Part shown: positions 5,214-62,385 of the stretch, piece by piece
How positions within the stretch are numbered: position 1 is the first letter of the stretch
Layout: each line of letters opens with the position of its first letter
Source: Clostridia bacterium
GTDB lineage: Bacteria; Bacillota; Clostridia; Christensenellales; Aristaeellaceae
Assembly: GCA_017547805.1 (NCBI GenBank)
Contig: JAFYOR010000043.1
Coordinates: 1 to 63,777, forward strand
Length of the DNA: 63,777 nt
Reading direction: 5' to 3'
Translations under genes and position numbers: made by a program
The notes under the pieces: model-generated
The model's database searches: none
What the model was told of the DNA's origin: nothing
The model's input: only the letters and a program-made list of their open reading frames with translations

Positions 5214-5390
5214 GTGAGCTATACCCACACCCGCTTCGCAGCGGCAGGCGGTGCCTGCACCCATACCGCTTCGCGGCGGTTAACCCGCTGCGTTCGGGCG
5301 GAAGGCCCTCCGCAGCTGATCTTTGCGGACAGAAATCATTCTATCCAAAATACACGAAACCGGAGACGAAAGTCTCCGGTTTCTTACTTT
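5211..5390 (+). repeat. Stop-abutting intergenic repeat (family 1) with terminator, after ppaC
   Basis: The repeat begins at the ppaC stop (TAAGTGAGCTATACCCACA) and runs through CCGCTTCGCAGCGG, one 36-bp unit with GGCGGTGCCTGCACCC, then CGCTTCGCGGCGG, CCCGCTGCGTTCGGGCGG, CTCCGCAGCTG and AATACACGAAACCGGAG. It ends in a 12-bp stem (5356-5367 with 5372-5383), a GAAA loop and a T-rich tail, which is a good terminator. Close copies follow other genes in this window (see 20548, 39770, 59212, 62232). Confidence 0.75.
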
Positions 5391-6421: not shown

Positions 6422-6431
6422 GTGCTGCTCC

Positions 6432-7604
6432 TTACTGATTGTCCAGAACCAGCGCGGCATGCATCAGCGTGCCGATGGTCAGGCAATCCTCGTCGATGTG
6501 GAAATCCTTGCTGTGCAGCGGCGGCGCGGGCATTTCGCTCTCGCGGACGCAGCCGAGGTGGAAGAATGCGCCGGGCGCGCAGTCGCAGAAGAAGGAGAAA
6601 TCCTCGCCGCCCATGCTGGGTTCCGGCTTGATGATCACGTTTTCCTCGCCCAGCAGCCTGCCGGCAATGCGGGTGATGCGCGCGGCCTCGTTATCGTCAT
6701 TGACCAGCGCGGCGTAGCCGGGAACGATATTGACGTCCGCACGGCAGCCCATCGCCAGCGCGATGCCTTCGGCAGTTTCGCGGATGCGCTGCTTCATCAT
6801 CGCGCGGATCTCACGGTTCGCCGTGCGCAGCGTACCGCGGATTTCCACGTTGTCGCAGATGATGTTCTGCGCTGTGCCGCCTTTGATGATGCCGAGACTG
6901 AGCACGGCGCTCTGCAGCGGGGACAGGTTGCGGGAAACCAGCGTCTGCAGCGCACAGATCACCTGTGCCGCACAGACGATGGCGTCGGCGCTGCTTTCGG
7001 GATAGGCGCCGTGACCGGCTTTGCCAAGGATGTTCAGGATGATCGTATCCGTGGACGCATTGAGCGTGCCCGGGCGGGTTTCGACCTTTCCAAGCGGAAT
7101 GCGCGGCATGACGTGCAGGCCGTAAACGCGGTCGACGTGCGGATTTTCCATGACGCCGGCAAGCACCATCGGCTCTGCGCCGCCGAGGCTTTCCTCCGCC
7201 GGCTGGAAGAGGAGCTTCACCTGACCGTGCAGCTCGCTGCGCATGGCATGCAGCACCTTCGCAGCGCCCAGCACCATGGCGACATGCGCGTCGTGACCGC
7301 AGGCGTGCATCATGCCCGGATGTGTGGAACGGAAGGCGCAGCCCTCCGGCTCCTCAAGGGGCAGGGCGTCCATGTCCGCGCGCAGCGCAACCGTTTCGCC
7401 CGGCAGCGCGCCCTGAATCAGGCCGACAACCCACGTGCGCTCCGTCTGATACGGTATGCCGATTTCATCAAGCGCATCCATGATGATCTTCTGGGTTTTG
7501 AATTCTTCAAAGCCGTTTTCCGGCACGCTGTGCAGCGCGCGGCGCTTGGCGATGATCCAATCGCGCTCGGCTTCAACCAGCGCTTTGAGCTTCTGATCGT
7601 CCAT
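6432..7604 (-). CDS. M20 family metal-dependent amidohydrolase (hippurate/IAA-amino acid hydrolase type)
   Basis: 390 residues. The M20D features are clear: LRADMDALP, the metal-binding HACGHDAH, the EESLGGAEPM segment, a central dimerisation domain (GHGAYPESSADAI) and the late EDFSFF. Such enzymes split the amide bond of N-acyl amino acids or short amino-acid conjugates in the cytoplasm. The natural substrate cannot be read from sequence; the neighbours alr and ldcA suggest a cell-wall-derived or D-amino-acid compound. It starts 12 bases after alr and has a GGAGG site; ldcA begins 10 bases after its stop. Confidence 0.85.
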   Translation of the reverse strand: MDDQKLKALVEAERDWIIAKRRALHSVPENGFEEFKTQKIIMDALDEIGIPYQTERTWVVGLIQGALPGETVALRADMDALPLEEPEGCAFRSTHPGMMHACGHDAHVAMVLGAAKVLHAMRSELHGQVKLLFQPAEESLGGAEPMVLAGVMENPHVDRVYGLHVMPRIPLGKVETRPGTLNASTDTIILNILGKAGHGAYPESSADAIVCAAQVICALQTLVSRNLSPLQSAVLSLGIIKGGTAQNIICDNVEIRGTLRTANREIRAMMKQRIRETAEGIALAMGCRADVNIVPGYAALVNDDNEAARITRIAGRLLGEENVIIKPEPSMGGEDFSFFCDCAPGAFFHLGCVRESEMPAPPLHSKDFHIDEDCLTIGTLMHAALVLDNQ

Positions 7605-7616
7605 ATTCAGCCTCCG

Positions 7617-8762
7617 TTATTCAAGTGGGAGAACGCAGGAAACGACCTTCCCGTTCTCCATGTATACGCGCGCAACGCGCTTGCCCGTTCGTGCGAGGGA
7701 TTCGTTGCGGTTGAGCCCCGCGACGGATGCGTATTCATCCACGCCGATTGTGCCGCCCAGCAGGATGACTTCGTCGCCTTCGCGCGCATCGGGAATGTCG
7801 GTGACGTCGACCATCATCTGATCCATGCACACAAGCCCGGCGACGGGAGCCCGCTGTCCGCGGATTTCGACCGCGCCAATGCTGTTCAGGCGCGGATAGC
7901 CGTCGATGTAGCCGCAGGAAAGCGTGGCGATCACGCTGTCGCGGCTGATGGGATGTGTTTCGTCGTAGCCGAGGCATTCTCCTGCCTTAACGCTGTGCAG
8001 CTGCGCGATTCTCGTCTTGACCGTCATGGCGAGCTGACTTTCCTCCGGATGGGCGTAGCCGCGCGGGTACACGCCGTAGAGCCATGCGCCGGTGCGCACG
8101 GCATCAAGGTGATCCTCGGGATAGCGCACCATGCCGATGCTGTCCAGCGCGTGCGTCATCGGCACGGCGATGCCCCGCGACGCGAGCGCGTCGCGCACAC
8201 CGGTGAGCAGATCGATCTGCTTTCTGTCGCTCTCCCTGTTGCGCAGGGCGAGATGGGTAAACAGGCCTTCCAGCGCAATCGCGCCGCCGTCAAGCATCGC
8301 TTCGATGGCGTCAGCCGCCTGAGCGGGATTGAGGCCGAGGCGATTGAGGCCCGTTTCGATCTTGACATGTGCACGGGCCACTTTTTGGGCGATGCCTGCA
8401 GCAGCTTTGACGGTGTCCGCGTAAGCCGGGCTGAAAACCGTCAGCAGCATGCCCTGCTCAATCGCCTTGACCGCCTGCGCCTTGGAGCAAAGGCCGAGGA
8501 TCAGCACGTCGATGTCCGGCAGGACTGCCTTGAGCTGCGCTGCTTCATCAAAGGACGCGACGGCAAAAAAGCGCTGTCCTTCCTGATACAGCCTCTGAGC
8601 GACCATCGGCGCGCCGAGGCCGTAGGCGTCCGCCTTGAGCACGCAGATGAGCTGCGTGCCGGCTTTCAGATGCATCAGGGCATTTTTATAGTTGAGAACC
8701 AGCCGGGTGAGATCGACCTCCGCCCAGCAGCGGGATACGGCCTCTTCGTAGGAGATGTTCAT
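7617..8762 (-). CDS. alr: Alanine racemase
   Basis: 381 residues from ATG 8762, which follows GGAGGG; a start 15 bases earlier is less well placed. This PLP enzyme interconverts L- and D-alanine for peptidoglycan. The PLP lysine is in VLKADAYG (Lys43). The C-terminal part has CLGYDETH, CGYIDGYPR and VCMDQMMVDVT, which carry the catalytic tyrosine region and the phosphate/substrate contacts of the family. It is the first gene of the alr-M20-ldcA operon, so D-Ala production and LD-carboxypeptidase release of D-Ala are co-expressed. Confidence 0.93.
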   Translation of the reverse strand: MNISYEEAVSRCWAEVDLTRLVLNYKNALMHLKAGTQLICVLKADAYGLGAPMVAQRLYQEGQRFFAVASFDEAAQLKAVLPDIDVLILGLCSKAQAVKAIEQGMLLTVFSPAYADTVKAAAGIAQKVARAHVKIETGLNRLGLNPAQAADAIEAMLDGGAIALEGLFTHLALRNRESDRKQIDLLTGVRDALASRGIAVPMTHALDSIGMVRYPEDHLDAVRTGAWLYGVYPRGYAHPEESQLAMTVKTRIAQLHSVKAGECLGYDETHPISRDSVIATLSCGYIDGYPRLNSIGAVEIRGQRAPVAGLVCMDQMMVDVTDIPDAREGDEVILLGGTIGVDEYASVAGLNRNESLARTGKRVARVYMENGKVVSCVLPLE

Positions 8763-12569: not shown

Positions 12570-13511
12570 TCAGCGCGCGCCCTCCTTCTTGACAAAGCTG
12601 ATTCGCGGATCGATGACGCCCATGAGCAGGTCGCCCAGCAGCAGGCCCACGATGCCGATACAGCTGTAGATGATGACGATGGCCTGAACCATCGTGTTGT
12701 CCTGACGGCCGATGACGTCGACCAGCAGACCGCCCATGCCCGGGATGGAGTAGAGCGATTCGACATAGATCGAGCCGCAGACGGTATACAGCAGGGAGGT
12801 CGGGATGTACTGGATCATCGGGACGAACGCATTGCGGAAGACGTGGCTGGTCATGATCTTCTTTTCCGCGATGCCCTTGGCGCGCGCAAGGCGCACGTAG
12901 TCCTTGTTCATCTCGTCCACCATGTAGCGGCGCAGCCACATCGCGTAGGACGCGGTGGAGCCCAGCGACATGGAGAAGACCGGCAGAATCCACGTCAGAT
13001 AGTTCGTCTCGTCAAAGAGCATGGAGATGCCCAGCGCCGTGGAGCCGTAGAGCTGGATGAAGATGTAGTACACGGCGGAGGGAACGGCATTGATGAAGAC
13101 GATGAACATCGTGCCGAACTTATCCCAGAACTTGCCCTTGCCTCTTGCCATCGCCGTGCCCAACGGAATACCCATCATCAGCGACAGCGCCATGGACAGC
13201 ACGCCCAGCTTGATGGAGATGGGCGCCTTCTTGGCGATGATGCCGGCAATCGGCGCGCCGACGCTGTAACGCGTGGAATTGCCCAGATCGCCCTGCAGCA
13301 GGTTCTTCAGGAAGTTAAAGAGCTGCACGGGAATGGGATCGTTCAGGCCCAGCTGTTCGAGCTTGGCGTTGATGGTCGCCGCGTCAGCCTTTTCGAAGTT
13401 GTCAAAATAGCCTTCAATCGGCATCTGGCGCAGGAGCACAAAGACCACCGTGATGATGATCAGCAGCGTCACCAGTGAGGAGGCCAGGCGTTTGATGGAA
13501 TACTTCAGCAT
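12570..13511 (-). CDS. oppB: Oligopeptide ABC transporter permease OppB
   Basis: 313 residues from ATG 13511 (GGAG before it), the normal OppB length. The first helix follows MLKYSIKRLASS, and the BPD_transp_1 core includes GMGGLLVDVIG and the DYVRLARAKG coupling motif that contacts the ATPases. With OppC it forms the membrane channel for peptide uptake. The stop is one base from the oppC start. It follows oppA after a 259-base gap that contains a strong hairpin. Confidence 0.93.
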   Translation of the reverse strand: MLKYSIKRLASSLVTLLIIITVVFVLLRQMPIEGYFDNFEKADAATINAKLEQLGLNDPIPVQLFNFLKNLLQGDLGNSTRYSVGAPIAGIIAKKAPISIKLGVLSMALSLMMGIPLGTAMARGKGKFWDKFGTMFIVFINAVPSAVYYIFIQLYGSTALGISMLFDETNYLTWILPVFSMSLGSTASYAMWLRRYMVDEMNKDYVRLARAKGIAEKKIMTSHVFRNAFVPMIQYIPTSLLYTVCGSIYVESLYSIPGMGGLLVDVIGRQDNTMVQAIVIIYSCIGIVGLLLGDLLMGVIDPRISFVKKEGAR

Positions 13512-13697
13512 GATATCTCCAACCTTTTGCTTGAAAGCGGCTTTCGCCGCCGGATATGCTTTGCACGGAGCAAAGATTCTTTTCTGCGGACCGTTAGATA
13601 TGCGGCGCGCAGCAGAGGTTTCATCAGGTTGCGTACGTCCCTGAGGAAAGCTCTGCTTCGCATAACGCATGTGGCGGATTGCCCATGCGAATGAGAA

Positions 13698-16717: not shown

Positions 16718-17377
16718 TTATTTCAGTCCGTCCCACAGCGCCGCGTCCTCTTCTTCAAGCAGCGCATGCTCGTCAAAGCCTTCCTTCATGCTGACAATGC
16801 GCTCAAAGATCACTTCGTCCGTGCGCTCGTCCTCGCCGTAGCGGCATTCAAATACGCGCACCTGGAGCAGATCGTTGTTTTCAATCGTCACAAATACATC
16901 GCCTTCAAAGACTGCCGTTTTGTGGTTTTGGCTGATCGCATAGCGCACGAGCTTCAGATCGCTTCCCTCCCAGCGGAAAACGTGCTTTTCGTGCAACAAC
17001 CCTGCCCAGCCAATCTGGTGATAGGTGGTGACCAGCCCGTGCTCGGGATCAAGCGCATAATTGGGCAGGCCGTCATCAAACAGATCGTTGCGTCCGGCGA
17101 GGACATACTGGCTGCCGTCCCAGACGTAGAACTCAAAAAAGCCGTTGCTTGCGCCCTGTGTGATGAGGAATACGAGATCGTCATGTCCGTCGAAATTGAC
17201 GTCCGCCTGTTGAACGGTCGCCCATTCCTCCTCACGGGAGATGTAGTAAATCTCCTGCCCGTTTGGCGCGGTATATCGGTGAATATTCTCAAGCTGAGGC
17301 GTCGTGCCGACGATTTCCGCCGCAGCGTTTACAGATAACAGTGCGAAAAGCAGCGTCAGAAGAATGAGTCGTTTCAT
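16718..17377 (-). CDS. Secreted protein with FG-GAP/VCBS-like calcium-loop motif, function unknown
   Basis: 219 residues with a signal peptide (MKRLILLTLLFALLSVNAAAE) and a GGAGGT site. One motif, DVNFDGHDDLVFL (about 58-70), is the D-x-N-x-D-G-x-x-D-L loop of FG-GAP/VCBS repeats, which often bind calcium. The rest is tyrosine- and tryptophan-rich and beta-like (FEFYVWDGSQYVL). A similar shape is found in small secreted proteins that sit next to SH3b proteins in Clostridia, but the function is not known. It is convergent with the SH3b gene. Confidence 0.65.
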   Translation of the reverse strand: MKRLILLTLLFALLSVNAAAEIVGTTPQLENIHRYTAPNGQEIYYISREEEWATVQQADVNFDGHDDLVFLITQGASNGFFEFYVWDGSQYVLAGRNDLFDDGLPNYALDPEHGLVTTYHQIGWAGLLHEKHVFRWEGSDLKLVRYAISQNHKTAVFEGDVFVTIENNDLLQVRVFECRYGEDERTDEVIFERIVSMKEGFDEHALLEEEDAALWDGLK

Positions 17378-19521: not shown

Positions 19522-19806
19522 GTGGTTTGCGCACCAATGCAAAAGAACGCCTCTGTGCTGCAAACATAAGTTCCGCGCCCGCCAGCTCCTTCCGTCACGG
19601 CTTCGCCGCGCCACCTTCCTCCCGGAGGAAGGCTCCTTGTATACGTTTCTTCCACAGATCGGCGACTATTCCGCTCAAAAGCAGCGCTTTTGGGGCCTCC
19701 CTCCGGGAGGGAGGGAGACCAGCCGCAGGCTGGTGGAAGGAGCCTGCGGGCGCGTAAATTGCACCCATTGCACAGTTGCGTTCTTTTGCAATGGTGCGTA
19801 AACCAC
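19522..19806. mobile_element. MITE-like element with 29-bp terminal inverted repeats
   Basis: The ends (19522-19550 and 19778-19806) are inverted repeats matching at about 27 of 29 positions, containing GCAAAAGAACGC. Inside are long palindromic arms (CTCCTTCCGTCACGGCTTCG, CCTCCCGGAGG, CTCCCTCCGGGAGGGAG). No open reading frame encodes a transposase. A related element is at 50155-50426. It fills most of the 566-base gap between the flavoprotein and yczE-like genes. Confidence 0.7.
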
Positions 19807-20504: not shown

Positions 20505-20547
20505 GAGCATGTGTAAATCTGTCTGACGCGATTTTTGAGCAAACAAA

Positions 20548-20673
20548 GAAACCGAAGCCGGAAGGCTTCGGTTTCGTGTATTTTGGCAAAAAACCATATA
20601 TTCCGCAAAGCGCAGCTGCACAGCGCCCTAAAGCGCCGCGAGGTGGCAGGCGGATGCGGGCACAGCCCGCTTA
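20548..20673. repeat. Stop-abutting intergenic repeat (family 1) with bidirectional terminator
   Basis: On the minus strand the repeat begins at the stop codon of the aspartoacylase-like gene (TAAGCGGGCTGTGCCCGCA) and runs through CTGTGCAGCTGCGCTTTGCGG to AATACACGAAACCGAAG. It ends in a 12-bp stem (GAAACCGAAGCC, 20548-20559, with 20564-20575) that can also terminate the yczE-like gene on the plus strand. Confidence 0.75.
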
Positions 20674-21606
20674 CGCTTTGGTGTTGCCCAGCACCTGGAA
20701 GACGGGGCTGTGCTCGGTGATGAAGGGGCCGTCCTGCACGAAGAAGAGCGTGCCGGTGAGCGGCGTTTTGAGCACTTCCTTCACCGCGCCGTCCAGCGGG
20801 TTGATGACGAAGGCCAGCTGCTCGCCGCGGCGCACATGCGCGCCGGCGAACTTGACGCGGCGCAGCAGGCCCGCCGTGCCGGCGGAGACGGAGATCATAT
20901 CCGCATCGGAGATGACCGTCACGCTGTGGCCAGGGGTCATGTCGCTGCGGATAATGCCGCGGCCGTTGAGGAAACGGATGATCGCGCGCAGCGTCTGTTC
21001 GGCTGCGTTTTCGTCGATTTCTCTGGTTTTGCCGGCGTAAAGCGAGTAGGCGCAGGTGCCGGCAAGCTGCCAGGTGTAGTTGAGCGTTGAAAGGTCTGCG
21101 TTGCGCGGCGTGCGCACATAGACGTAGGGCAGACCGAATTCGCAGCCCAGCTCCGGGTTCTGGCGTCCGGTATCCATCACGCGGACGTGCGGGATGAAGG
21201 AGCCGGGCTGATAGAAGCTGGTCAGCTGGACGCCGTATTTGTAGGCCTTCAGCCGGTCAAAGAGCGCGCCGGTGATGCGCTCGCTCGTCTCGCCCTGAAG
21301 ATCGCCGGGGAAGCGGCGGTTGATGTCCATATTTTCCGGCGCCCAGAGGCGGTTGCCGGTGTTCATGGAAAAACCGATGACCGTGGGAACGACCATAACG
21401 CTCTTGCCGGGCATGATGCCGCCCTCGCGCTCAACCTCGCGCAGATACGCGACCAGACGCGCGCAGACATACAGCTGCTGAATCTCATCGCCGCGCAGCG
21501 CGCCGAGCACCACGCAGCTCTTTTCGCCCTTGCCAAAGCGATAGCCCATGACGTTCATGTCGTCACGGAAATAGGACGGTACGGTAAGGAGGATGTCCTT
21601 TTTCAT
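20671..21606 (-). CDS. Aspartoacylase/succinylglutamate desuccinylase-like protein with degenerate zinc site
   Basis: 311 residues. The fold and length fit the AstE/AspA branch of M14-like deacylases, with ENMDINRRFPGD matching the conserved N-R-x-F-P-G and a C-terminal barrel-like domain (GHSVTVISDADMISVSAGTAGLLRRVKF). The zinc-binding G-x-H-G-D-E motif reads ALRGDE, so His is Arg, and the D-x-H region reads GVQLTSF, so the third ligand is also lost. The upstream gene, which overlaps by four bases (ATGA), is an intact paralogue. This copy is probably catalytically inactive and may act as a partner or regulator of the other; that is inferred. Confidence 0.8.
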   Translation of the reverse strand: MKKDILLTVPSYFRDDMNVMGYRFGKGEKSCVVLGALRGDEIQQLYVCARLVAYLREVEREGGIMPGKSVMVVPTVIGFSMNTGNRLWAPENMDINRRFPGDLQGETSERITGALFDRLKAYKYGVQLTSFYQPGSFIPHVRVMDTGRQNPELGCEFGLPYVYVRTPRNADLSTLNYTWQLAGTCAYSLYAGKTREIDENAAEQTLRAIIRFLNGRGIIRSDMTPGHSVTVISDADMISVSAGTAGLLRRVKFAGAHVRRGEQLAFVINPLDGAVKEVLKTPLTGTLFFVQDGPFITEHSPVFQVLGNTKA

Positions 21607-25481: not shown

Positions 25482-27257
25482 ATGAAGAAATTCTTCGCGC
25501 TGCTGCTCTGTCTTACGCTCTTTGTTCCTGCGCTGGCGGAATCCTGCGTCCTCTGCGGCGGGGATACTGTGTGCGATACCTGCAACGGACTGGGCTATGA
25601 GGAGATGGAAGCCTTCGGCGGCGGCATGACGAAGGTGGCATGCACGGCGGGCTGCAGCAACGGCGCCTGCCCCACATGCAAAAAGGAATGTGAATTCTGC
25701 GGCGGGGACGCCGTATGCGATACCTGCAATGGCCTTGGTTATCAGGAGATGGAAGCCTTCGGCGGCGGCATGACGAAGGTCGCCTGCACAGGGGAAAACT
25801 GCGAGGATGGAAAGTGCAGCATGTGCGCCGCGGCTGATGCATCAACGGCGGAGGAAAACCCGCTTGCGCAGGCGCATCCCTTCGCTGAAGCGAAGGTTGA
25901 GGCGGCGGTGCGTAAGACGCTTGGAAAAAACAAGGGAGACATTACCTATGAGGATCTTCTGAAGGTTACAAAGCTGGAAGTTGTCGCTCAAAAAATCTCT
26001 GACGTATCGGACTTCGGGTATATGACCAATCTGACAGATTTGAATCTGACTGGCAATGAGCTCACCGACATTACGCTCCTTTCCGGGCTGACCAGTCTGA
26101 CAGCTTTGAATCTGAGGAGCAATAAGAACATCGACCTTACGACCCTTTCCAGAATGATCAATCTGAGAACGTTGAATCTGGAATACAATCAGCTCACCGA
26201 CATTACGCCCCTTTCCGGGCTGACCAATCTGACGGATTTGAAGCTGTTCGCAAATGATATCATCGACATCGCGCCCCTTTCCGGGCTGACCAATCTGATA
26301 GCTTTGGATCTGAGCGGAAATGAGATCACCGACCTCGCGCCGCTTTCCGGCCTGACCAATTTGACGACTTTGGATCTGAACAACAATGAGATCACCGACA
26401 TCATGCCCCTTTCCGGGCTGACCGGTCTGATTTATTTGAATCTGCACAACAATAAACTGACTGACCTCACGTCCCTTGCCAGCCTGACCAATTTGACAAG
26501 GTTGTGGATACCCAGCAATGAGATCATCGATATCACGCCTCTTTCCGTGCTGACCAATCTGACGGCTTTGGAGCTGGGAATCAATCAGATCACCGATATT
26601 ACGCCCCTTTGTGAACTCACCAAACTGACATATTTGGGTCTGAGTGCGAATGAGATTGTCGACCTCGCGCCGCTTTCCGGGCTGACAGATCTGACGACTT
26701 TGAATCTGGAAAAAAATGAGATCATCGACCTTACGCCGCTTTCCGGGCTGACCGATCTGACAGAGTTGTATCTGGCTGATAATCAGATCATCGACCTCAC
26801 GCACCTCTCCGGGATGAACAAGCTGAAGTCTTTGGATTTGAGAAGTAACAAGATCAAAGATTTTTCTCCGGTCTCCGGCAAGAAAATCCCATACCTTAAA
26901 ACAAAGGACACCCCCAAAGGAGGGACGTTCAGTTCTGCCGCATCTTCCAAGAGTTCTGCCTCTGGTTCCTCATCGTCTTCTTCTTGGTCGAGCTCTTCTT
27001 CCAGCAGCTGGAGTTCCTCCTCGTCCTCTTCCAGCAGCACCACCACGCGCACGAAGGACTGCACCAGCTGCAGCAACGGCAAGGTTTCCTGCACGCAGTG
27101 CGGCGGCAGGGGCTACTTTGAAAAGCGCGTGTCCGTGCCCAATTACTCCGGCAAGGGCAGCAAGTATGAAACGGTGAAGGAAGACTGCGGCAAGTGCCGG
27201 GGTCTTAAGACGCAGGACTGCAGCGCCTGTGACGGCAGGGGCAAGGTTGAATACTAA
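25482..27257 (+). CDS. Secreted LRR protein flanked by DnaJ-like cysteine clusters
   Basis: 591 residues with a signal peptide (MKKFFALLLCLTLFVPALAE) and AAGGAGGT. Residues about 22-120 hold two near-identical cysteine blocks (CxxC-GG, CDTCNGLGY), like the CxxCxGxG zinc repeats of DnaJ. Then come 13 tandem 22-residue leucine-rich repeats of internalin type (N-L-T-x-L-x-L-x-x-N-x-I-x-D-I-x-P-L-S-G-L-T, about 184-470). A serine-rich linker (about 485-525) is followed by a second cysteine cluster (CTSCSNGKVSCTQCGG, CGKCRG, CSACDGRG). No anchor is visible. The LRR part suggests protein binding outside the cell. The use of DnaJ-type cysteine clusters there is unusual, and function is unknown. Confidence 0.85.
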   Translation: MKKFFALLLCLTLFVPALAESCVLCGGDTVCDTCNGLGYEEMEAFGGGMTKVACTAGCSNGACPTCKKECEFCGGDAVCDTCNGLGYQEMEAFGGGMTKVACTGENCEDGKCSMCAAADASTAEENPLAQAHPFAEAKVEAAVRKTLGKNKGDITYEDLLKVTKLEVVAQKISDVSDFGYMTNLTDLNLTGNELTDITLLSGLTSLTALNLRSNKNIDLTTLSRMINLRTLNLEYNQLTDITPLSGLTNLTDLKLFANDIIDIAPLSGLTNLIALDLSGNEITDLAPLSGLTNLTTLDLNNNEITDIMPLSGLTGLIYLNLHNNKLTDLTSLASLTNLTRLWIPSNEIIDITPLSVLTNLTALELGINQITDITPLCELTKLTYLGLSANEIVDLAPLSGLTDLTTLNLEKNEIIDLTPLSGLTDLTELYLADNQIIDLTHLSGMNKLKSLDLRSNKIKDFSPVSGKKIPYLKTKDTPKGGTFSSAASSKSSASGSSSSSSWSSSSSSSWSSSSSSSSSTTTRTKDCTSCSNGKVSCTQCGGRGYFEKRVSVPNYSGKGSKYETVKEDCGKCRGLKTQDCSACDGRGKVEY

Positions 27258-27339: not shown

Positions 27340-27499
27340 GACCTCATCCGTCTCGCCTTCGGCGATCCACCTTCCCCAAAGGGGAAGGCTTGATGTGCGC
27401 TTTGCCGAAAATATGAGATAATTCAAATCTGCTTAAAACCGCTGCAAAGGCCTTCCCCTTTGGGGAAGGTGGCAGCCCGCAGGGCTGACGGATGAGGTC
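27340..27499. mobile_element. 160-bp MITE-like palindromic element
   Basis: Perfect 13-bp terminal inverted repeats GACCTCATCCGTC and GACGGATGAGGTC. Inside, CCTTCCCCAAAGGGGAAGGC is repeated as an inverted copy on the other side. No coding capacity. It fills the gap between the LRR gene terminator and the tldE stop. Confidence 0.75.
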
Positions 27500-33642: not shown

Positions 33643-33770
33643 AACCTCATCCGTCACGGCTTCGCCGTGCTGCCTTCTCCGGGAAACTGAACAGTCGTGC
33701 AAGCACTCCGCCTGCCTGAATCGCCCACAGGGCGCGGCAGGCTGCAGTCTCAAAGGGGAAGGCTTTATTT
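33643..33770. mobile_element. Decayed MITE-like repeat between parA and parB
   Basis: AACCTCATCCGTCACGGCTTCGCCGTG at the left matches the arm of the elements at 27340 and 19522/50155; AAAGGGGAAGGC at the right matches the inner arm of the element at 27340. The middle is rearranged and the right terminal repeat is lost. Confidence 0.55.
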
Positions 33771-39769: not shown

Positions 39770-40012
39770 TCCTCTGCCCGAAGGAAACGGATTCAAGCTA
39801 CCGCGAAGCGGAAGTGGATGCAGGCACTGCCTGCCGCCGCGAAGCGGAAGTGGGTGCAGGCACCGCCTGCCGCCGCGAAGCGGAAGTGGGTGCAGGCACC
39901 GCCTGCCGCCCGTAAACGACGCTGCGCAAAGCCGGGGATCGGAGGGCCTTCTGCCCGTGCGATCCCATTCAAGCCGCCGCGAAGCGATGTGGGTGCGGGC
40001 ACAGCCCGCTTA
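39770..40012 (-). repeat. Stop-abutting repeat (family 1) after leuS with three tandem 36-bp units
   Basis: On the minus strand the repeat starts at the leuS stop (TAAGCGGGCTGTGCCCGCA) and continues CCCACATCGCTTCGCGGCGG. At 39802-39909 lie three copies of a 36-bp unit (CGCGAAGCGGAAGTGGGTGC, then AGGCACCGCCTGCCGC on the plus strand); copies 2 and 3 are identical and copy 1 differs at two positions. The same unit occurs once after ppaC. Confidence 0.78.
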
Positions 40013-42664: not shown

Positions 42665-42968
42665 CCTCCTTAACACTTGACAAAACACCCCTGCCGGCGG
42701 GATGTCTGAGTTGCATCCACCGGCAGGGGCGTCAATTTACGCTGTACCACCCTGCTTCAGCCGACAAAACGGCCCTTAGCAGACTATGAAATAGTCATGA
42801 CCGGTCACGGGGTCTTCCGTCGCAGATTACTTTCTTCACCTGCGCAACTCCGGGATGAGGAATCTGCGCGCCTGCCCGTCGGCTTTCACCAGCCGCCGAC
42901 TCTCTGCGGGTGCAAAGCAGCGAGATGCTTCCCTTCATCGTCTTTCTGTCGGATATGAAACTGCGTCT
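42665..42968 (-). promoter_or_regulatory. T-box riboswitch leader of leuS
   Basis: About 300 bases between the promoter and leuS. The T-box sequence AGGGTGGTACAGCG is at 42740-42753, preceded on the RNA by a long stem I region. An intrinsic terminator follows: CGCCCCTGCCGG pairs with CCGGCAGGGGTG (42684-42731) and ends in TTTTG. Uncharged tRNA-Leu is expected to favour the antiterminator and allow leuS expression. I could not assign the specifier codon by eye. Confidence 0.88.
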
Positions 42969-42997
42969 ATTGTACAGAACCGGGGCTCAAAAGTCAA
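42969..42997 (-). promoter_or_regulatory. Promoter of leuS
   Basis: Minus strand TTGACT and TACAAT with a 17-base spacer, about 320 bases before the start codon. Confidence 0.75.
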
Positions 42998-43086
42998 GGA
43001 TTTTCGTTTTTTTCTGATCCTGCCTGACTTTTTACGCATCAGACGGCAGTTTTTGAAAAAATCTGCAAAAAAATCGAAAAAGGGGC

Positions 43087-43115
43087 TTGCCAAACACCAT
43101 GTCTTCTGCTATAAT
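43087..43115 (+). promoter_or_regulatory. Promoter of tRNA-Thr
   Basis: TTGCCA and TATAAT with a 17-base spacer, 15 bases before the tRNA. Confidence 0.8.
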
Positions 43116-43130
43116 TCCTTTTGTTGCAGC

Positions 43131-43207
43131 GCTGATGTAGCTCAGCCGGTAGAGCGCATCCTTGGTAAGGATGAGGTTCACGAGTTCGATTCTCGTCATC
43201 AGCTCCA
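43131..43207 (+). tRNA. tRNA-Thr(GGT)
   Basis: The acceptor arm GCTGATG pairs with CATCAGC, followed by T and an encoded CCA. D arm AGCTC...GAGC, anticodon stem-loop ATCC-TTGGTAA-GGAT with anticodon GGT (43164-43166), and T arm CGAG-TTCGATT-CTCG. Reads ACC/ACU threonine codons. Confidence 0.95.
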
Positions 43208-43428
43208 GAAGAAAACACCTCTGTGTGAAAAACGCAGGGGTGTTTTTCATTATGCAAACGCATATCACGCCCCTTTTCAAGGAAAAAATCACGAGATTCA
43301 TTCTCGTCATCAGCTCCGGAGGCAATCACCTCTGTGTGAAAAACGCAGGGGTGTTTTTCATTGTGTTATTGCATATCGCGCCCCTTTTCAAGGAAAAAAT
43401 CACGGGTTCGATGCTCGCTGCCGGCTTA
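43179..43428 (+). repeat. 111-bp tandem duplication carrying the tRNA-Thr 3' part
   Basis: Units start at 43179, 43290 and 43401 (the last one partial), each beginning CACGAG or CACGGG from the tRNA T arm. Units 1 and 2 each contain the tRNA 3' end, a terminator (ACACCTCTG with CGCAGGGGTGT, then T run) and CGCCCCTTTTCAAGGAAAAAA. The T loop of unit 2 is altered, so it is not a second tRNA. Confidence 0.85.
43212..43247 (+). terminator. Terminator after tRNA-Thr (first copy)
   Basis: AAAACACCTCTG pairs with CGCAGGGGTGTTTTT, ending in a T run. A second copy is at about 43327-43358 within the tandem duplication. Confidence 0.75.
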
Positions 43429-43430
43429 TC

Positions 43431-43459
43431 TTGTGTCCAGTCCCCATCTGATGTATACT
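43431..43459 (+). promoter_or_regulatory. Promoter of the zinc-ribbon membrane protein gene
   Basis: TTGTGT and TATACT with a 17-base spacer. Confidence 0.65.
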
Positions 43460-44743: not shown

Positions 44744-44878
44744 ATGTTTCACTCCTTTGCTTGTTGGCTGTCTGTTTTTTCCTGTTCGGGAAATTGCGTA
44801 GAAGTCATGGTCACGGACACAGGTGAAACGGCGATTGCAGCGTGCTTCGGATGTGGAGGCGGGCACTGCCCGCTTTTG

Positions 44879-46054
44879 TCAGAGCATCAGGCGGTAGATG
44901 TTTTCCACGTCCTTCTTGCTTAGCGGGACAAAGCCGCCGATGGTGCCCTGACGCGCGTCGCCGTAGCAGGCGCACTGCGCCATGCGCTCAATATCTTCTT
45001 CCTTCGCGCCCAGCTGAGCAAAGTTGACGGGCATGCCGATGGAGACAAGGAAGCGCCGCAGCGCGTCGATGCCGGCCTTCGCCGTGCGCTCGGGGTGTTC
45101 AAAATCCATCTCGCAGCCCCACACGCGCACCGCCGCCTGCGCAAAGCGCATGACGTTGTGGTGCATGTTGTAGGTGAATACGGCCGGCATCACGACGGCA
45201 AGCCCCGCGCCGTGCGCGCAGTCGTAGATGGCAGAAAGCTCGTGCTCGATGTCGTGGCTGGCCCAGTCCTGCGTGCGGCCAACGCCGCAGCAGTTGTTGT
45301 GCGCCATCATGCCGGCCCACAGAATGTTGGCGCGCGCCTGATAGTCGTTAGGATCGGCCATGACCTTGGGCGCTTCGTTGATCATCGTGAGCATCAGCGC
45401 CTCGATCACGCGGTCGGTGCATTCTACATCCGCCGTGTTCGTCAGGTAGCGCTCGTAGAGATGCGCCATGATATCCGTGATGCCGCACGCGGTCTGATAC
45501 GGCGGGAGTGTCTGCGTGAGCGCGGGGTTGAGGATGGTGAACTTCGGGCGCAGGCCTTCGCCGCTCGCGCCGCGCTTGTACATGCCGTCCTCGTAGGTAA
45601 TCACGGAGTCGGGGGAGCCTTCGCTGCCTGCGGCGGCGATGGTCAGCACCGTGCCGATGGGCAGCGCGTTGTCAACCGGCTTGCCCTGATAGAAGTCCCA
45701 GAAATCGCCGTCGTACACGACGCCGGCGGCAATGGCTTTCGCGGAATCGATGGTGCTGCCGCCGCCTACGGCGAGGACGAAATCCACGCCTTCCCTGCGG
45801 CAAAGCTCGATGCCCTCGTAAACCAGACCGCTGCGGGGATTGGGCTTGACGCCGCCCAGCTCCACATAGGCAAGCCCTTGCGCTTCAAGCGATTTTTTCA
45901 CGCGATCAAGCAGACCGGAGCGAATGACGCTGCCGCCGCCGAAGTGCACGAGCACTTTGCTGCCGCCAAAACGCCTGACGTACTTGCCGGTATCCTGCTC
46001 GGTGTCTTTGCCGAAGGCAAAATACGTCGGCGCATAGAACGTAAAGTTATCCAT
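44879..46054 (-). CDS. Iron-containing alcohol dehydrogenase (butanol dehydrogenase/YqhD type)
   Basis: 391 residues from ATG 46054 (GAGGAGG before it). The NAD(P)-binding GGGSTIDSAKAIAAG and the metal-binding set, DIMAHLYERY followed by HDIEHELSAIYDCAHGAGLAVVMP, are complete. It reduces aldehydes to alcohols, or the reverse, with NAD(P)H in the cytoplasm. The DxxxH-H-H pattern fits the BDH/YqhD branch. It is followed directly by the GCGGGCAGTGCCCGCC repeat tail. It has its own promoter. Confidence 0.92.
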   Translation of the reverse strand: MDNFTFYAPTYFAFGKDTEQDTGKYVRRFGGSKVLVHFGGGSVIRSGLLDRVKKSLEAQGLAYVELGGVKPNPRSGLVYEGIELCRREGVDFVLAVGGGSTIDSAKAIAAGVVYDGDFWDFYQGKPVDNALPIGTVLTIAAAGSEGSPDSVITYEDGMYKRGASGEGLRPKFTILNPALTQTLPPYQTACGITDIMAHLYERYLTNTADVECTDRVIEALMLTMINEAPKVMADPNDYQARANILWAGMMAHNNCCGVGRTQDWASHDIEHELSAIYDCAHGAGLAVVMPAVFTYNMHHNVMRFAQAAVRVWGCEMDFEHPERTAKAGIDALRRFLVSIGMPVNFAQLGAKEEDIERMAQCACYGDARQGTIGGFVPLSKKDVENIYRLML

Positions 46055-50154: not shown

Positions 50155-50426
50155 ATGCATCATTGTAAAGAACGAATTCTGAATGATTAAGAAGTCATTG
50201 CGCCCGCTGGCTCCTTCCGTCACGGCTTCGCCGTGCCACCTTCCTCCCGGAGGAAGGCTTTATGTATACGCTTCTTCTATAGATCAGCAGCTTTTACACT
50301 GAAAAGCAGCGCTTTTTCAAGGCTCCCTCCGGGAGGGAGCTGTCTGCCGAAGGCAGACTGAGGGAGCCGGCGGGCGCTATTGCTTTGTAATCATTCAGAA
50401 TTCGTTCTTTTGCAATAGTACACAAA
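50155..50426. mobile_element. MITE-like element, second copy of the long type
   Basis: The terminal inverted repeats include a perfect 23-bp match (50167-50189 with 50388-50410, centre AACGAATTCTGAATG) and a weaker outer part. Inside are CTCCTTCCGTCACGGCTTCG, CCTCCCGGAGG and GGCTCCCTCCGGGAGGGAG as in the copy at 19522-19806. No coding capacity. Confidence 0.75.
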
Positions 50427-58191: not shown

Positions 58192-59214
58192 ATGGCCAAA
58201 GTCATTACTTTCGGCGAACTCATGTTGCGCCTGCAGCCCTTCAATTACGAGCGTTTCGTTCAGGCTACCACCTTCGAAGCTTCCTTCGGCGGCGGCGAGG
58301 CCAATGTTGCTGTTTCTCTTGCCAACTATGGCTTTGATGCCGAGTTTGTTACCAAGCTCCCGGCTCACTCCATCGGTCAGATGGCCGTCAACTCCCTGCG
58401 TCAGTATGGCGTTGGCACCAAGTTCATCACCCGCGGCGGCAACCGCGTGGGCATCTACTACAACGAGAAGGGTGCTTCCCAGCGTCCGTCCGTGTGCATC
58501 TACGACCGCGCCAACTCTGCGATCGCTCTGGCTTCTTCCGAGGACTTTGATTGGGACGCCATCTTCGACGGCGCCGACTGGTTCCACTTCACCGGCATCA
58601 CCCCGGCTCTGGGCAAGAATGTCGTTGAGATCTGCAAGGAAGCCTGCAAGGCGGCCAAGGCCCGCGGCGTGAAGATTTCCTGCGACCTGAACTACCGCGG
58701 CAAGCTGTGGACCCGTGCCGAGGCGCGCGAGGCCATGACCGAGCTGGCGAAGTACATCGACGTGTGCATCTCCAACGAGGAAGACGCGAAGGATGTTTTC
58801 GGCATCGAGGCTGAGGACACTGACATCACCGCCGGTGAACTGAACAAGGAAGGCTACAAGTCCGTTGCCCGTCAGCTGATGGACAAGTTCGGCTTTGAGA
58901 AGGTGGCCATCACCCTGCGTGAGTCCAAGTCCGCCTTTGACAACGACTGGTCTGCCATGCTCTACGACGGCGAGAACTACTGCTTCTCCAAGCTGTATCA
59001 CCTGCACATCATCGACCGCATCGGCGGCGGCGACTCCTTCGGCGGCGGCCTGATCTATGCGCTGCTCTCCGGCAAGTCCAGCCAGGAAGCCATCGAGTTT
59101 GCGGTTGCTGCTTCCGCGCTGAAGCACTCCATCGGCGGCGACTACAACCACGTCACCGTGGCTGAGGTCGAGAAGCTCGCCGGCGGCGACGGCTCCGGCC
59201 GCGTCCAGCGCTAA
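58192..59214 (+). CDS. kdgK: 2-dehydro-3-deoxygluconokinase (PfkB family sugar kinase)
   Basis: 340 residues from ATG 58192 after CAGGAGTG. It starts with ITFGELMLRLQP and FGGGEANVAVSLANYG, the KDG kinase type of PfkB start, and has the catalytic DRIGGGDSFGGGLIYAL (about 280) with the general base aspartate. It phosphorylates KDG from pectin and uronate breakdown. Codon choice is more uniform than in its neighbours (mostly GCT, GTT, TCC), which suggests high expression. No other uronate gene is near. The gene runs directly into the family-1 repeat at its stop. Confidence 0.88.
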   Translation: MAKVITFGELMLRLQPFNYERFVQATTFEASFGGGEANVAVSLANYGFDAEFVTKLPAHSIGQMAVNSLRQYGVGTKFITRGGNRVGIYYNEKGASQRPSVCIYDRANSAIALASSEDFDWDAIFDGADWFHFTGITPALGKNVVEICKEACKAAKARGVKISCDLNYRGKLWTRAEAREAMTELAKYIDVCISNEEDAKDVFGIEAEDTDITAGELNKEGYKSVARQLMDKFGFEKVAITLRESKSAFDNDWSAMLYDGENYCFSKLYHLHIIDRIGGGDSFGGGLIYALLSGKSSQEAIEFAVAASALKHSIGGDYNHVTVAEVEKLAGGDGSGRVQR

Positions 59215-59362
59215 GCAGGCTGTGCCTGCACCCGCTTCGCTTCGCGGCGGTTTGACCCGCTGCGTTCGCGCGGAGGGCGCTCCGCAGCTGATTTTCAGCT
59301 GGGGATGAAACGTATCTGAACAACAAGAAACCGGGGACGAAAGTCTCCGGTTTTTCTTTTTT
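59212..59362 (+). repeat. Stop-abutting repeat (family 1) with terminator after kdgK
   Basis: The stop codon is the first part of the repeat (TAAGCAGGCTGTGCCTGCA). It continues CCGCTTCGCTTCGCGGCGG, CCCGCTGCGTTCGCGCGG and CTCCGCAGCTG, and ends in a GAAACCGGGGAC/GTCTCCGGTTTTT stem with a T run (59327-59355). From 59363 to 59574 no gene is seen. Confidence 0.8.
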
Positions 59363-59574
59363 CTGAAAGAATGTCGCAGCTTCGTTCTTTTGAGTGGTAT
59401 GAAACCATGCTTTTCGTGCCAATGTTTTATATGAATACGCATCAGGAAACACACCCTGCTCCCTCTGGCCACAGCGGAGCGCGTAACCAGTTTCTTATAC
59501 AGAAATGCTTCCGCTGATAGCATGCTTTGCCCACCGGTACTGCCGCAGCTTCATCCCGTGCTTTTCTTCCAACC

Positions 59575-59603
59575 TTGCCAGCCTACATCATTTGTGCTAG
59601 AAT
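59575..59603 (+). promoter_or_regulatory. Promoter of the ICMT-like gene
   Basis: TTGCCA and TAGAAT with a 17-base spacer. Confidence 0.6.
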
Positions 59604-59635
59604 GGCAGCAAAACAGAAACAGGAGATATGATCGG

Positions 59636-60307
59636 ATGAAAGCCAAACTTGCGGCGAAGGCGATGGCCTTTTTCCTCGTTGGCGCGGCGCTGGTTGCGCT
59701 GCTGCTTTTCCTGCCTGCGGGCACGCTTTCTTATCCCGGCGCATGGCGGCTGATGGGGCTGCTCTTTATCCCGATGCTGATTCTTGGCGTGCTGCTGCTG
59801 ATCTTTGCGCCGGAGGTGCTCAAAAAGCGCCTGAATGCAAAGGAAAAGATGGGCGACCAAAAGCGCGTGGTCGGCGTCACGGGCGTGGTGTTCCTCCTTG
59901 GCTTTGTGCTGGCGGGGCTGGATTTCCGCTTCGGGTGGACGGCTGTTCCCGGCTGGCTGATCGCGCTGGCGTCGCTGGTGTTCGTTGCGTCCTATGCGAT
60001 GTATGGCGAGGTCATGCGCGAGAATGCGTGGATCTCCCGCACGATCGAGATTCAGGAGGGGCAGAAAGTCGTTTCCACCGGGCTGTATGGCGTTGTGCGC
60101 CATCCGATGTATCTGGCGGCGAGCCTGCTGTTTACGTCCATGCCGCTGGTGATGGGCTCCTTTGTGTCGTTTGCTGTGTTCCTCGTGTTTCCGCTGATGA
60201 TGGGCGTGAGAATCCGCGGCGAGGAGGAGCTGCTCATGCGTGAGCTTGACGGCTATGCGGCGTACCGGCAGAAGGTGCGCTATAAGATGATTCCATTTAT
60301 CTGGTAA
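59636..60307 (+). CDS. Isoprenylcysteine carboxyl methyltransferase-like membrane protein
   Basis: 223 residues from ATG 59636 (AGGAGA before it). About five membrane helices, then GLYGVVRHPMYLAASLL and EEELLMRELDGYAAYRQKV, the SAM-binding signature of the ICMT/phospholipid methyltransferase superfamily. In bacteria such proteins methylate unknown lipids or small molecules. The stop codon runs into TAAGCGGGCTGTGCCAGCACCC, another family-1 tail. Confidence 0.82.
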   Translation: MKAKLAAKAMAFFLVGAALVALLLFLPAGTLSYPGAWRLMGLLFIPMLILGVLLLIFAPEVLKKRLNAKEKMGDQKRVVGVTGVVFLLGFVLAGLDFRFGWTAVPGWLIALASLVFVASYAMYGEVMRENAWISRTIEIQEGQKVVSTGLYGVVRHPMYLAASLLFTSMPLVMGSFVSFAVFLVFPLMMGVRIRGEEELLMRELDGYAAYRQKVRYKMIPFIW

Positions 60308-60405
60308 GCGGGCTGTGCCAGCACCCACATCCGAAGCAGCTTGGCTTTTGCCGATCCACCGCTTCCGTAGCCGTGTTTTCACACGATTTCCACAGTACAG
60401 ACAAA

Positions 60406-60440
60406 AACGGCGCATCCCCGGCTGAGGGATGCGCCGTATT
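60406..60440 (-). terminator. Terminator after the CD3324 gene
   Basis: ACGGCGCATCCC pairs with GGGATGCGCCGT; the minus strand ends in TTTTTG. Confidence 0.8.
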
Positions 60441-60737
60441 CTATTTCCGGCTGTCGTCATCGGCGGCTTCGCGTTTCTGGCTGACGATGATGCGCTGAAT
60501 GCTCTTGACGGACAGGTAGTAGCGCCGGGCAAGCGCTTCCGTGCGCTCTCCGGCGAGGTATTCCTTGTAAATCCGCTCGTTGCGCGCTTTGAGTTCCCGG
60601 CGCGTGGCGGTTTTTTCGCCCCATTCCTTTTTGGAGCCTTTGATGCGGGGAATATAGAGGAATTCTCCGTCGGCATATTGCTGAACCTGCTCAAGGAGTT
60701 CCTTGGGCAGATGCTGTGTTGCATTTTTGTATCGCAT
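60441..60737 (-). CDS. CD3324 family protein (small HTH protein)
   Basis: 98 residues from ATG 60737 (AAGAAGGAA before it). YKNATQHLPKELLEQVQQYADGEFLYIPR and the W-G-E-x-T-A-T-R-R-E segment match the CD3324 family, with a C-terminal helix-turn-helix (GERTEALARRYYLSVKSIQRII). These small Clostridia proteins are probably DNA-binding; the target is unknown. A short frame with a strong ribosome site lies upstream at 60823-60912 and may share the transcript. Confidence 0.82.
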   Translation of the reverse strand: MRYKNATQHLPKELLEQVQQYADGEFLYIPRIKGSKKEWGEKTATRRELKARNERIYKEYLAGERTEALARRYYLSVKSIQRIIVSQKREAADDDSRK

Positions 60738-60822
60738 GGCTGTTCCTTCTTTCTCCCTGACGGGAACAGCAAAGCGGCGGCAACACCGTGAAAATATTCT
60801 TGATTTTACGCGGCCGCTTTGC

Positions 60823-60912
60823 TCATTGGATCGGTAATTCGTGCTTGCCCGGGGTATACATGACAGATACAAGGCGCATCGTAAACATATGACCGTAATT
60901 GAGATTAGACAT
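60823..60912 (-). CDS. Possible 29-residue microprotein
   Basis: A GGAGG site lies 8 bases before ATG 60912. The frame reads MSNLNYGHMFTMRL and ends KHELPIQ at the stop 60823. The strong site suggests translation, but I recognise no family and the frame could be the start of a truncated gene. It lies 85 bases before the CD3324 gene. The rest of the gap 60913-61072 shows no gene. Confidence 0.35.
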   Translation of the reverse strand: MSNLNYGHMFTMRLVSVMYTPGKHELPIQ

Positions 60913-61072
60913 TGAAAAATTCCTCCATTATTTATATTGATAAGTGTTTGTCTGTTCATGATAACACATAACGAGTACGGAGAAAACCTCAAATTTGAAT
61001 ATAATAGAAAGCGCGGAGAGGAAAACTGGCTTTTCCCGCCGTGTGCGCCGCCGCGGATCCGGGGGAAATAAA

Positions 61073-61104
61073 CAGCGCCTTTCCGGAAACAGGAAAAGGC
61101 GCTG
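61073..61104 (-). terminator. Hairpin downstream of the MBL-fold gene
   Basis: CAGCGCCTTTCC and GGAAAAGGCGCTG form an imperfect stem. The MBL-fold gene ends at 61139 with TAAGCGGGCCGTGCC, a family-1 tail start. Confidence 0.5.
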
Positions 61105-61138
61105 CAGAATGCTTTGGATATGGACGGGCACGGCCCGC

Positions 61139-62053
61139 TTATTGTTTGTCGGGAGCGACCTGGGGCATTTCCTGCGGATCAAAGCAGCCGACTGCCTGCT
61201 CGATGTACCAGTCCGTTCCATCCGTCACAGCGCGCACCGCGCCCTCTCCGGAGAGAAATGCCGGAATAGCGCGGCCTTTGAGCTGGGACATGGACTGGGA
61301 AAAGACGGTCTTCTTTTCGTTGGTCACCACCGCTGCGCCGGGCATGACCGTATCAAGGAATTCCGGCACAGCCGGGACAAGACCGTGATGCGGAATCTTG
61401 ATGATGTCCGCTTTGAGGATCCCCTCCTGACGGTTTTCCATGAAATACCGCTGGACCTCGCCCGTGATATCCGCGCACAGGAGCAGAGAGCTTTCGCCAA
61501 ACGTCACTTTCAGCACGAGGGAGCGCGCGTTGGCGCCGAAGAGCTCCGTGCAGTGGAGCACGTGAAGCTGCGCGCCGCCGAGCGTCAGCAGGTCGCCGTC
61601 GTGCACCTGACGCAGCGGAATCTGGTTATGCTGCGCCTGACGGATGGTACGGTACAGGCGTTCTTCATCCTTGAGGAAGCTGTCCTTGTATCCGTGCAGG
61701 AATTCGCCGGCGGTGAAGCCGTAGCGCATCAGATAATACAATCCGTCGATGTGGTCGTCGTGATAATGCGTGCTGAAGAAGTACTTCATGCTCCGCTCAA
61801 GGCCGCGCGCCGCCAGCGCATCGCGCAGCTGTTCGCGATAGGGCTTGGGGCCGCCGTCCACCATCATGCTTTCCCCGCCGCAGCGAAGGAGCATGGCGTC
61901 GCCCTCGTTGGTGTCAAAGATTGTCCACTCCAGCACGTCCTTGTCCTGCCAGTCCTCGGGCGGCGGACCAAAATGGATTTCCGCCTGCGCGCAGGCATAC
62001 AGGAACAGCATCATCACGACAGCGCACAGCGTTGCTTTCATCATTCGTTTCAT
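61139..62053 (-). CDS. Secreted MBL-fold metallohydrolase (ComEC C-terminal-domain type)
   Basis: 304 residues from ATG 62053 (AGGA upstream). A signal peptide (to AQAE) comes first, then an MBL domain with IFDTNEGDAMLLRCGG, the metal motif THYHDDHIDG (H-x-H-x-D-H), ADITGEVQRY and IPHHGL. The layout is that of ComEC/Rec2-like stand-alone MBL proteins, thought to cut nucleic acid or phosphodiesters outside the membrane. No comE genes are near. Monocistronic. Confidence 0.87.
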   Translation of the reverse strand: MKRMMKATLCAVVMMLFLYACAQAEIHFGPPPEDWQDKDVLEWTIFDTNEGDAMLLRCGGESMMVDGGPKPYREQLRDALAARGLERSMKYFFSTHYHDDHIDGLYYLMRYGFTAGEFLHGYKDSFLKDEERLYRTIRQAQHNQIPLRQVHDGDLLTLGGAQLHVLHCTELFGANARSLVLKVTFGESSLLLCADITGEVQRYFMENRQEGILKADIIKIPHHGLVPAVPEFLDTVMPGAAVVTNEKKTVFSQSMSQLKGRAIPAFLSGEGAVRAVTDGTDWYIEQAVGCFDPQEMPQVAPDKQ

Positions 62054-62231
62054 CAAATCGTTTCCTATCCGCTTTTGAGCATTGATTCGTTCCGCACCGC
62101 CGGCGCGGACTGAAGGACTTTATTATAATGTATTTTCCTGCATGCAGGCAACCTCTATTTTCATAAATACGATAGGGGAAACGCGCTTCCATCTTTGCTT
62201 CGCGCAGATTAAAGAAAGCAATATGCCAAAA

Positions 62232-62385
62232 AAGAAACCGAAGCCCTTCAGCTTCGGTTTCGTGTATTCCGGTAAAATGCCATATGTTCCGCAAAGTCCA
62301 GCTGCACAGGGCCCTCCGCCCGAACGCAGCGGGTCAAGCCGCCGCGAAGCGGTGCGGGTGTGGGCACAGCCCACCGGCCCGCTCA
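62232..62385 (-). repeat. Stop-abutting repeat (family 1) with terminator after serA
   Basis: On the minus strand it starts at the serA stop (TGAGCGGGCC, then GGGCTGTGCCCACA) and continues CGCTTCGCGGCGG, CCCGCTGCGTTCGGGCGG and CTGTGCAGCTGGACTTTGCGG. It ends with AATACACGAAACCGAAG and a GAAACCGAAGC/GCTTCGGTTTC hairpin plus T run (62234-62261). Between 62054 and 62231 no gene is seen. Confidence 0.78.

Follow-up and report, generated by a model that had tools for sequence, protein, structure and literature searches.

Directly behind the stop codons of unrelated genes in a 63,777-base stretch of DNA (the window), we found copies of a short palindromic repeat, and the same register at the stop codon recurs across the host genome and in sister species. 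The window corresponds to contig C30 in a draft genome of 2.67 Mb (G000; 113 contigs, 83% complete), called the host below. The repeat is a family of short palindromic repeats like the repetitive extragenic palindromic (REP) sequences, restricted to one genus of uncultured gut Clostridia. Its copies open with a hairpin, hairpin A, that often abuts the stop codon. As judged from sequence comparison, it is supported that they behave as a dispersed module of the 3' untranslated region (3' UTR), gained lineage-specifically. This agrees with the preliminary description of the window, which had proposed a mobile 3'-UTR module: copies are dispersed, and gains lie behind unchanged stops.

A consensus of 15 full host copies contains, in this order, hairpin A (GCGGGC TGT GCCCGC), the bases ACCC, a short hairpin B (CGCTTCGCG), hairpin C (GCTGCG, an inner GSGC..GSGC stem, CGCAGC), a spacer of about 40 nucleotides (nt) and a terminator-like module T, whose hairpin (GAAACCGGAGACGA..GGTCTCCGGTTTC) is followed by a T-rich stretch. 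Mean pairwise identity was 73% for A, 88% for B, 91% for C and 86% for T, and 47% for the spacer. The shared parts had been described as ending in a terminator. This is the case in all 15 aligned copies, but AATACACGAAACCG and the terminator form a module of their own, T. In the leuS copies of the sister genomes G004 and G011, other terminators lie downstream of A-B-C, so T looks like an addition in the host lineage. Among the 15 aligned copies only T fits an intrinsic terminator; hairpin A is followed by ACCC instead of a T-tract. In sister species the inner part of hairpin C is alike and the outer stem different. The 3' ends of copies vary, many arrays are head-to-tail, and opposite-orientation copies lie near some of them.

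Copies were searched with R1, a covariance model of hairpins A and B that was trained on 23 copies from the window and from the first BLAST loci and that leaves out the stop codon. The best 150 candidates were scored per genome (the best 57 in a family-wide survey), and copy numbers are thus lower bounds. R1 gave at least 149 host matches at E up to 10 among the best 150 of 3,116 candidates, and a 148-position model gave at least 131 among the best 150 scored. Of the 149 R1 matches, one was flagged as contained entirely within a called gene. Among the weak R1 matches, some come from a different repeat family (e.g., C28:13663 and C80:51385). Host contigs C26, C64, C65, C66, C85 and C90 end in or near element matches; the assembly seems to break at copies, and some may therefore be missing.

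The 149 matches form 86 arrays. Genes were called over 477 kb, window included, covering the R1 matches, with a self-trained codon model of our own that had been trained on window genes. In 62 arrays the element lies in sense orientation no more than 300 nt downstream of a called gene; 6 more are in sense but farther away, 11 lie behind an opposite-strand gene and 7 have no called gene upstream. The offset from stop codon to hairpin A was 0 in 26 of the 62 sense arrays, +1 in 7 and -1 in 3, placing 36 within one base. The others lay at +3 (4 arrays), +7 to +10 (6), -9 (1) and scattered from +19 to +205 (15). Uniform placement in the same gaps would put 0.38 of 61 arrays at offset 0, the -9 case (C64:13503) having been removed before this calculation. 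Inspection by eye suggests that four of the +7 to +10 arrays are a partial hairpin copy at 0 or +1 followed by a full hairpin, and that in several arrays at +19 to +107 a diverged first unit lies close to or at the stop codon. The genome-wide tabulation of distances confirmed that the register at the stop codon is real.

The register was repeated in sister species. At E 1e-4, 25 of 41 R1 matches were examined, and 17 began at 0, 2 at +1 and 6 elsewhere or as second units. Of nine further copies from G025, three lay at 0 and three at +2, +4 and +24, respectively; one was a second unit, and the remaining two had no called sense gene upstream. A looser regular expression placed the family behind 56 genes, of which 24 had it at 0, 6 at +1, 1 at +4 and 1 at +5.

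Hairpins do not abut stop codons generally in this genome. In 262 control genes (400 kb, stretches L174-L193, mostly away from copies), 104 had a strong hairpin within 40 nt of the stop and 2 of these began at 0 (shuffled mean, 0.2), and a general rule was rejected on this basis. Among all 599 called genes, 40 hairpins began at 0 versus 3.2 after shuffling. For two other dispersed repeat families the motif began at 0 in 0 of 18 and 1 of 15 cases, where motif starts may differ from true element ends. Stretch L183, one of those chosen as away from copies, holds one array (C11:14471) of at least one that is absent from the R1 list: TAA, CCG and then the hairpin, at +3.

All three stop codons were used at offset 0 (20 TAA, 5 TGA and 1 TAG; 348, 244 and 7, respectively, in all 599 genes). 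Stop trinucleotides occur in any frame at 1.8 per 60 nt after stops. Yet only 1 of the 50 arrays lying beyond one base of a stop was preceded by such a trinucleotide; 2 of the 50 lay at contig edges without readable context. Since stop trinucleotides are hardly used elsewhere, the element tracks the in-frame stop codon, and TAA, TGA or TAG as a plain DNA target is disfavoured. The earlier idea of insertion at stop codons may still apply, though less likely in the form of a plain trinucleotide target. Two copies (L133, at G000:C64:13503, and L322, in G025:C47) have no stop in front: GAG is followed by GYG GGC TGA, and the gene terminates at the TGA in the loop. Both would be explained if a TAG had been lost and the loop TGA had taken its place.

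Orthologues with and without the element were then compared. The leuS C-terminus KLIFVPGRLLNIVC was present in all 12 orthologues compared (of 22 matches); hairpin A begins at 0 in G000, G004 and G011, a hairpin of another sequence is found in G012 and none in the other 8. Similarly, prfB ended in ITAYLQMQ in all 25 orthologues compared (of 27 matches, 2 lacking the C-terminus). Hairpin A lies within one base of the prfB stop in G011, G005, G013 and G000, and degenerate hairpin forms in G012 and G025; the rest have other sequences, including terminators and other repeats. G015 prfB, outside these 25, has hairpin A at 0.

A 20-kb stretch of host contig C5 contains seven genes selected for being occupied: an amidohydrolase-like gene, an unnamed gene, purE, a purF-like gene, another unnamed gene, and the genes for IMP dehydrogenase and formate-tetrahydrofolate ligase. 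The element is at 0 in all seven; at the purF-like gene the copy at 0 is partial and the full hairpin begins at +8. Judged by eye, hairpin A was present in 0 of 48 matched genes from 11 sister genomes, where some purE-like and purF-like rows are possibly not true orthologues. Five of the seven genes have the same C-terminal end position across sisters; the other two are too variable to judge. The copies behind purE, the purF-like gene and the next unnamed gene sit between same-strand neighbours. Genes with a copy and their copy-free orthologues share the same last residue; the stop is therefore not supplied by the element, which was gained behind stops that already existed.

The window copies, with offsets counted from the stop codon, are as follows.

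kdgK-like PfkB-family kinase, TAA at 59212-59214: 59215..59360, plus strand, full A-B-C-spacer-T at +0, beginning GCAGGCTGTGCC.
ICMT-like gene, TAA at 60305-60307: 60308..60339, plus strand, hairpin A with a ACCCACATCCGAAGCAG tail at +0; weak R1 match (25.8 bits).
MBL gene, TAA at 61139-61141: 61124..61138, minus strand, hairpin A alone (GCGGGCCGTGCCCGT) at +0, with hairpins B and C not seen behind it; absent from the R1 match list.
serA, TGA at 62383-62385: 62228..62374, minus strand, full A-B-C-T, whole hairpin at +8.
leuS, TAA at 40010-40012: 39914..40009, minus strand, A-B-C unit at +0.
Downstream of the leuS unit: 39798..39906, minus strand, three more tandem A-B units with a 36-nt period.
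Gene at 20671-21606 (minus strand, TAA): 20542..20670, minus strand, hairpin A, diverged B/C and terminator T, at +0.
ppaC, TAA at 5211-5213: 5214..5389, plus strand, diverged unit GTGAGCTATACCCAC at +0 and full A-B-C-T at 5244-5389 (+30).
Fe-ADH gene, TGA at 44879-44881: 44843..44873, minus strand, hairpin A with a CTCCACATCCGAAGC tail at +5; absent from the R1 list.

The preliminary description had placed the family directly after the stops of unrelated genes, which was borne out at +0 for kdgK, the ICMT-like and MBL genes, leuS and the gene at 20671-21606; behind the last four the sequence at +0 is GCGGGC.GTGCC. A diverged form at ppaC was also found as described, together with the good unit behind it. 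At serA only a partial copy, GCGGGCCG (62375-62382), is at +0, ahead of the full hairpin; partial short copies precede a full hairpin at other genes as well. At the Fe-ADH gene the hairpin is present, but five and not four bases after the stop. Pfam matches at E 1e-10 back the names kdgK (PfkB), leuS, serA, ppaC and Fe-ADH. No match at this threshold was found for the ICMT-like, MBL and aspartoacylase-like genes, whose names are those of the preliminary description. A 12-mer allowing up to 2 mismatches matched the window 31 times versus 14.0 expected, a count reached in 0 of 100 shuffles. A regular expression detected the family at 6 of 46 called window genes; it passes over kdgK (GCAGGC) and ppaC (diverged), and 8 window gene ends thus carry the family.

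Ten of 29 genus genomes, host included, match R1 at E 1e-4 or better, with at least 67 matches in the host and at least 41 in the nine others together. In the family survey, which used stricter filters, 3 of 120 genomes matched at 1e-5, all of them members of this one genus among the 50 sampled. Scanning named genomes for the exact pattern returned 10 stretches, all from Clostridia or Clostridiales drafts, 4 of them labelled sheep or water-deer rectum. In seven loci, no Rfam covariance model matched the element at E values up to 1.

To our knowledge, DNA-moving enzymes read sequence and not reading frame. Thus, either the ends of gene products would direct placement, or selection would keep mainly flush copies. 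Between these we lean to placement at gain, tentatively and at somewhat less than an even chance. The register would be set by a process recognizing the end of the gene product (the stop codon, perhaps other RNA 3' ends) and not a DNA sequence, with the repeat added mostly in one orientation and flush to the 3' ends of existing genes. It would then be retained, since drift is hardly possible where a stop codon and a hairpin, both constrained, abut without a gap. The excess at offset 0 in the host and in sister species, the lack of a register in the two other repeat families, the rarity of copies behind stop trinucleotides elsewhere and the comparisons of occupied with empty orthologues count in favour of placement at gain. 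After placement, A-B-C would open the 3' UTR or lie in the gap before the following gene, in the host often with a terminator behind it.

Several observations weigh against placement at gain. No insertion event was seen directly, the comparisons lacking very close strain pairs with and without a copy. The host draft, at 83% completeness, had no match to Y1 (0) or RVT_1 (0). That A, B, C and T (73-91%) are better conserved than the spacer is equally explicable by a selected function, and single copies lie at +4 and +5. RNA ends other than stops also gave little. Hairpin A lies exactly after the encoded CCA of a tRNA-Leu gene, which favours placement at gain, but such a junction was found in 1 of 15 distinct tRNAs of the loci examined, and a CCA-junction pattern search of 29 genomes gave four matches, all in the host and one at a tRNA. 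As a single case, tRNA ends were rejected as a frequent second docking site. A T-tract directly precedes 3 of 86 arrays versus 1.1% of intergenic positions, and a hairpin-A unit near a ROOL RNA lies 6 nt past the modelled RNA end and is not flush. The tRNA, T-tract and ROOL junctions are leads, not proof. The ROOL locus (L131, G000:C56) carries two adjacent ROOL RNA copies, 6197-6844 and 6964-7499, the unit following the second.

Selection could instead set the register, which we regard as possible but less probable. Copies would insert at many sites behind genes, and the flush ones would be kept because the hairpin affects ribosomes at termination, the decay of the mRNA or the processing of its 3' UTR. 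An effect of this kind has been proposed for Escherichia coli REPs: for REPs up to 15 nt from the stop, passages of PMC12306157, citing an earlier study, give ribosome stalling and lower translation. The conservation of the hairpins over the spacer is consistent with selection, as is the presence of several housekeeping genes (purE, lepA, prfC, obgE, grpE and fhs) among the 20 carrier genes scanned. However, the published REP effect extends over distances of up to 15 nt, which leaves a register of exactly 0 unexplained. Between +4 and +6 there is no R1 array, and between +10 and +18 a single one (the looser regular expression places single genes at +4 and +5), and selection would need seven separate spacers to have been trimmed to zero in the 20-kb C5 stretch.

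The pairing in hairpin A also speaks against selection. Imperfect pairs were G-U in 6 and A-C in 17 cases among 129 copies, and G-U in 6 and A-C in 10 among 37 distinct copies. G-U is thus not preferred over A-C, a pattern unlike that expected if a sense-strand RNA hairpin were under selection. In 10 of 33 predicted pairs, a double change that preserves the pair was seen at least once. Template-switch correction can also perfect short palindromes. Given this alternative, and with A-C breaks at least as numerous as G-U breaks, we did not accept the covariation as proof of an RNA.

A specific form of placement at gain, in which a mobile repeat is joined, by way of an RNA intermediate, to gene-product 3' ends, appears unlikely. 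The 5' end of the repeat would be attached at an RNA end (an mRNA cut at the stop, a tRNA after CCA or a terminator U-tract), for example by template switching or ligation, and the copy would then recombine back into the gene. The lack of a detectable reverse transcriptase in the host draft counts against it. If true, it would mean an insertion process that reads the stop signal of the genetic code.

More doubtful still is a REP family moved by a REP-associated tyrosine transposase (RAYT, of the Y1 type), a family whose DNA target would include the stop codon. The short GC-rich palindromes, many copies, tandem arrays and nearly exclusive location outside genes would fit. The family resembles REPs and bacterial interspersed mosaic elements (BIMEs) of E. 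coli, Pseudomonas and others in these GC-rich short palindromes, in its many extragenic copies and arrays, and in that some of those also lie near stops. Unlike them, it has mostly one orientation relative to the gene, a sharp stop register and A-B-C hairpins in fixed order. BIME copies are paired in alternating orientation; here both head-to-tail arrays and nearby opposite copies occur. Passages of PMC2817692 list REP 5' tetranucleotide motifs of the GTAG/GGAG type. In front of the copies described here we found stop codons or varied triplets and no conserved tetranucleotide of that type; moreover, stop trinucleotides are hardly used outside the stop position. A RAYT gene (Y1, PF01797), which the preliminary description had suggested looking for, had 0 matches in the host draft, which holds the most copies, and none in G012; 16 of 29 genus genomes have one. 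Since two defining features of REPs, the 5' motif and, as far as the draft shows, the RAYT, are lacking, the family, albeit REP-like, was not filed as REP.

The two weakest explanations can be treated briefly. That the element supplies the stop codon, inserting near gene ends with frame-terminating copies surviving, is very improbable: the two copies that end the frame inside the hairpin loop would fit, but the empty leuS and prfB orthologues end at the same residue and TAA, TGA and TAG all occur at offset 0, so this earlier proposal was abandoned. Equally hard to credit are ordinary stop-proximal terminators or a gene-calling artefact, because, although stem-loops near stops are common in low-GC Firmicutes (passages of PMC1590033) and the gene caller was home-made, hairpin A lacks a T-tract and continues with ACCC, B and C, other hairpins show no sharp peak at 0, and the leuS and prfB stops are confirmed by C-termini shared across species.

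Other known systems share single features with the family. The attC site of integrons is a folded palindrome that lies immediately behind an open reading frame. By this general description it is alike in position, while the repeats described here lie behind chromosomal housekeeping genes. Enterobacterial repetitive intergenic consensus (ERIC) sequences, like miniature inverted-repeat transposable elements (MITEs), are alike in size (about 100-150 bp) and strong folding. Passages of PMC2229807 describe terminal inverted repeats, target duplication and TA ends for ERIC, as well as a proposed ribosome-linked effect on mRNA decay in Yersinia. The copies described here have no fixed bases in front and variable 3' ends. 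Uptake-sequence terminators of Neisseria and Haemophilus (passages of PMC1852404) are likewise repeats of the 3' region, and module T is terminator-like. However, the hairpin that abuts the stop, A, is distinct from the terminator, and A-B-C precedes other terminators in two sister leuS copies. Heptamer repeats of Xanthomonas are over-represented within 50 bp of stop codons, and some overlap the codon itself; the passages of PMC4692102 mention no single-base register. Our literature search, with most subscription papers outside its scope, found no description of a stop-flush repeat with single-base register.

Further repeats and features were noted in the window and in the loci. Another palindromic family, of the CCTCATCCGTC..CCTTCCCC type, occurs in the window at 19575-19691, 27341-27377, 33644-33680 and 50200-50316. 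Tandem repeats with a 66-nt period (25957-26916) lie within the open frame 25482-27257 and by eye resemble CxxC zinc-finger modules; the same frame has two 99-nt copies, 144 nt apart. Two 111-nt tandem copies, 88% identical, lie at 43178-43399 in the open frame 42855-43451. In locus L102, stretches of about 150 nt (8607-8758 and 13352-13512) recur in sister genomes, mostly at 87-91% identity, and look recently mobile. The same locus has a ZMP/ZTP riboswitch (17122-17209) ahead of the formate-tetrahydrofolate ligase gene, with the same match in L003.

A register at real stops, of all three kinds and older than the repeat, means either a mobile element guided by translation or by RNA ends, or near-single-base selection for a hairpin that touches the stop. 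Both outcomes would be surprising; given very close strains, sequence data could decide between them through orthologues with and without a copy.

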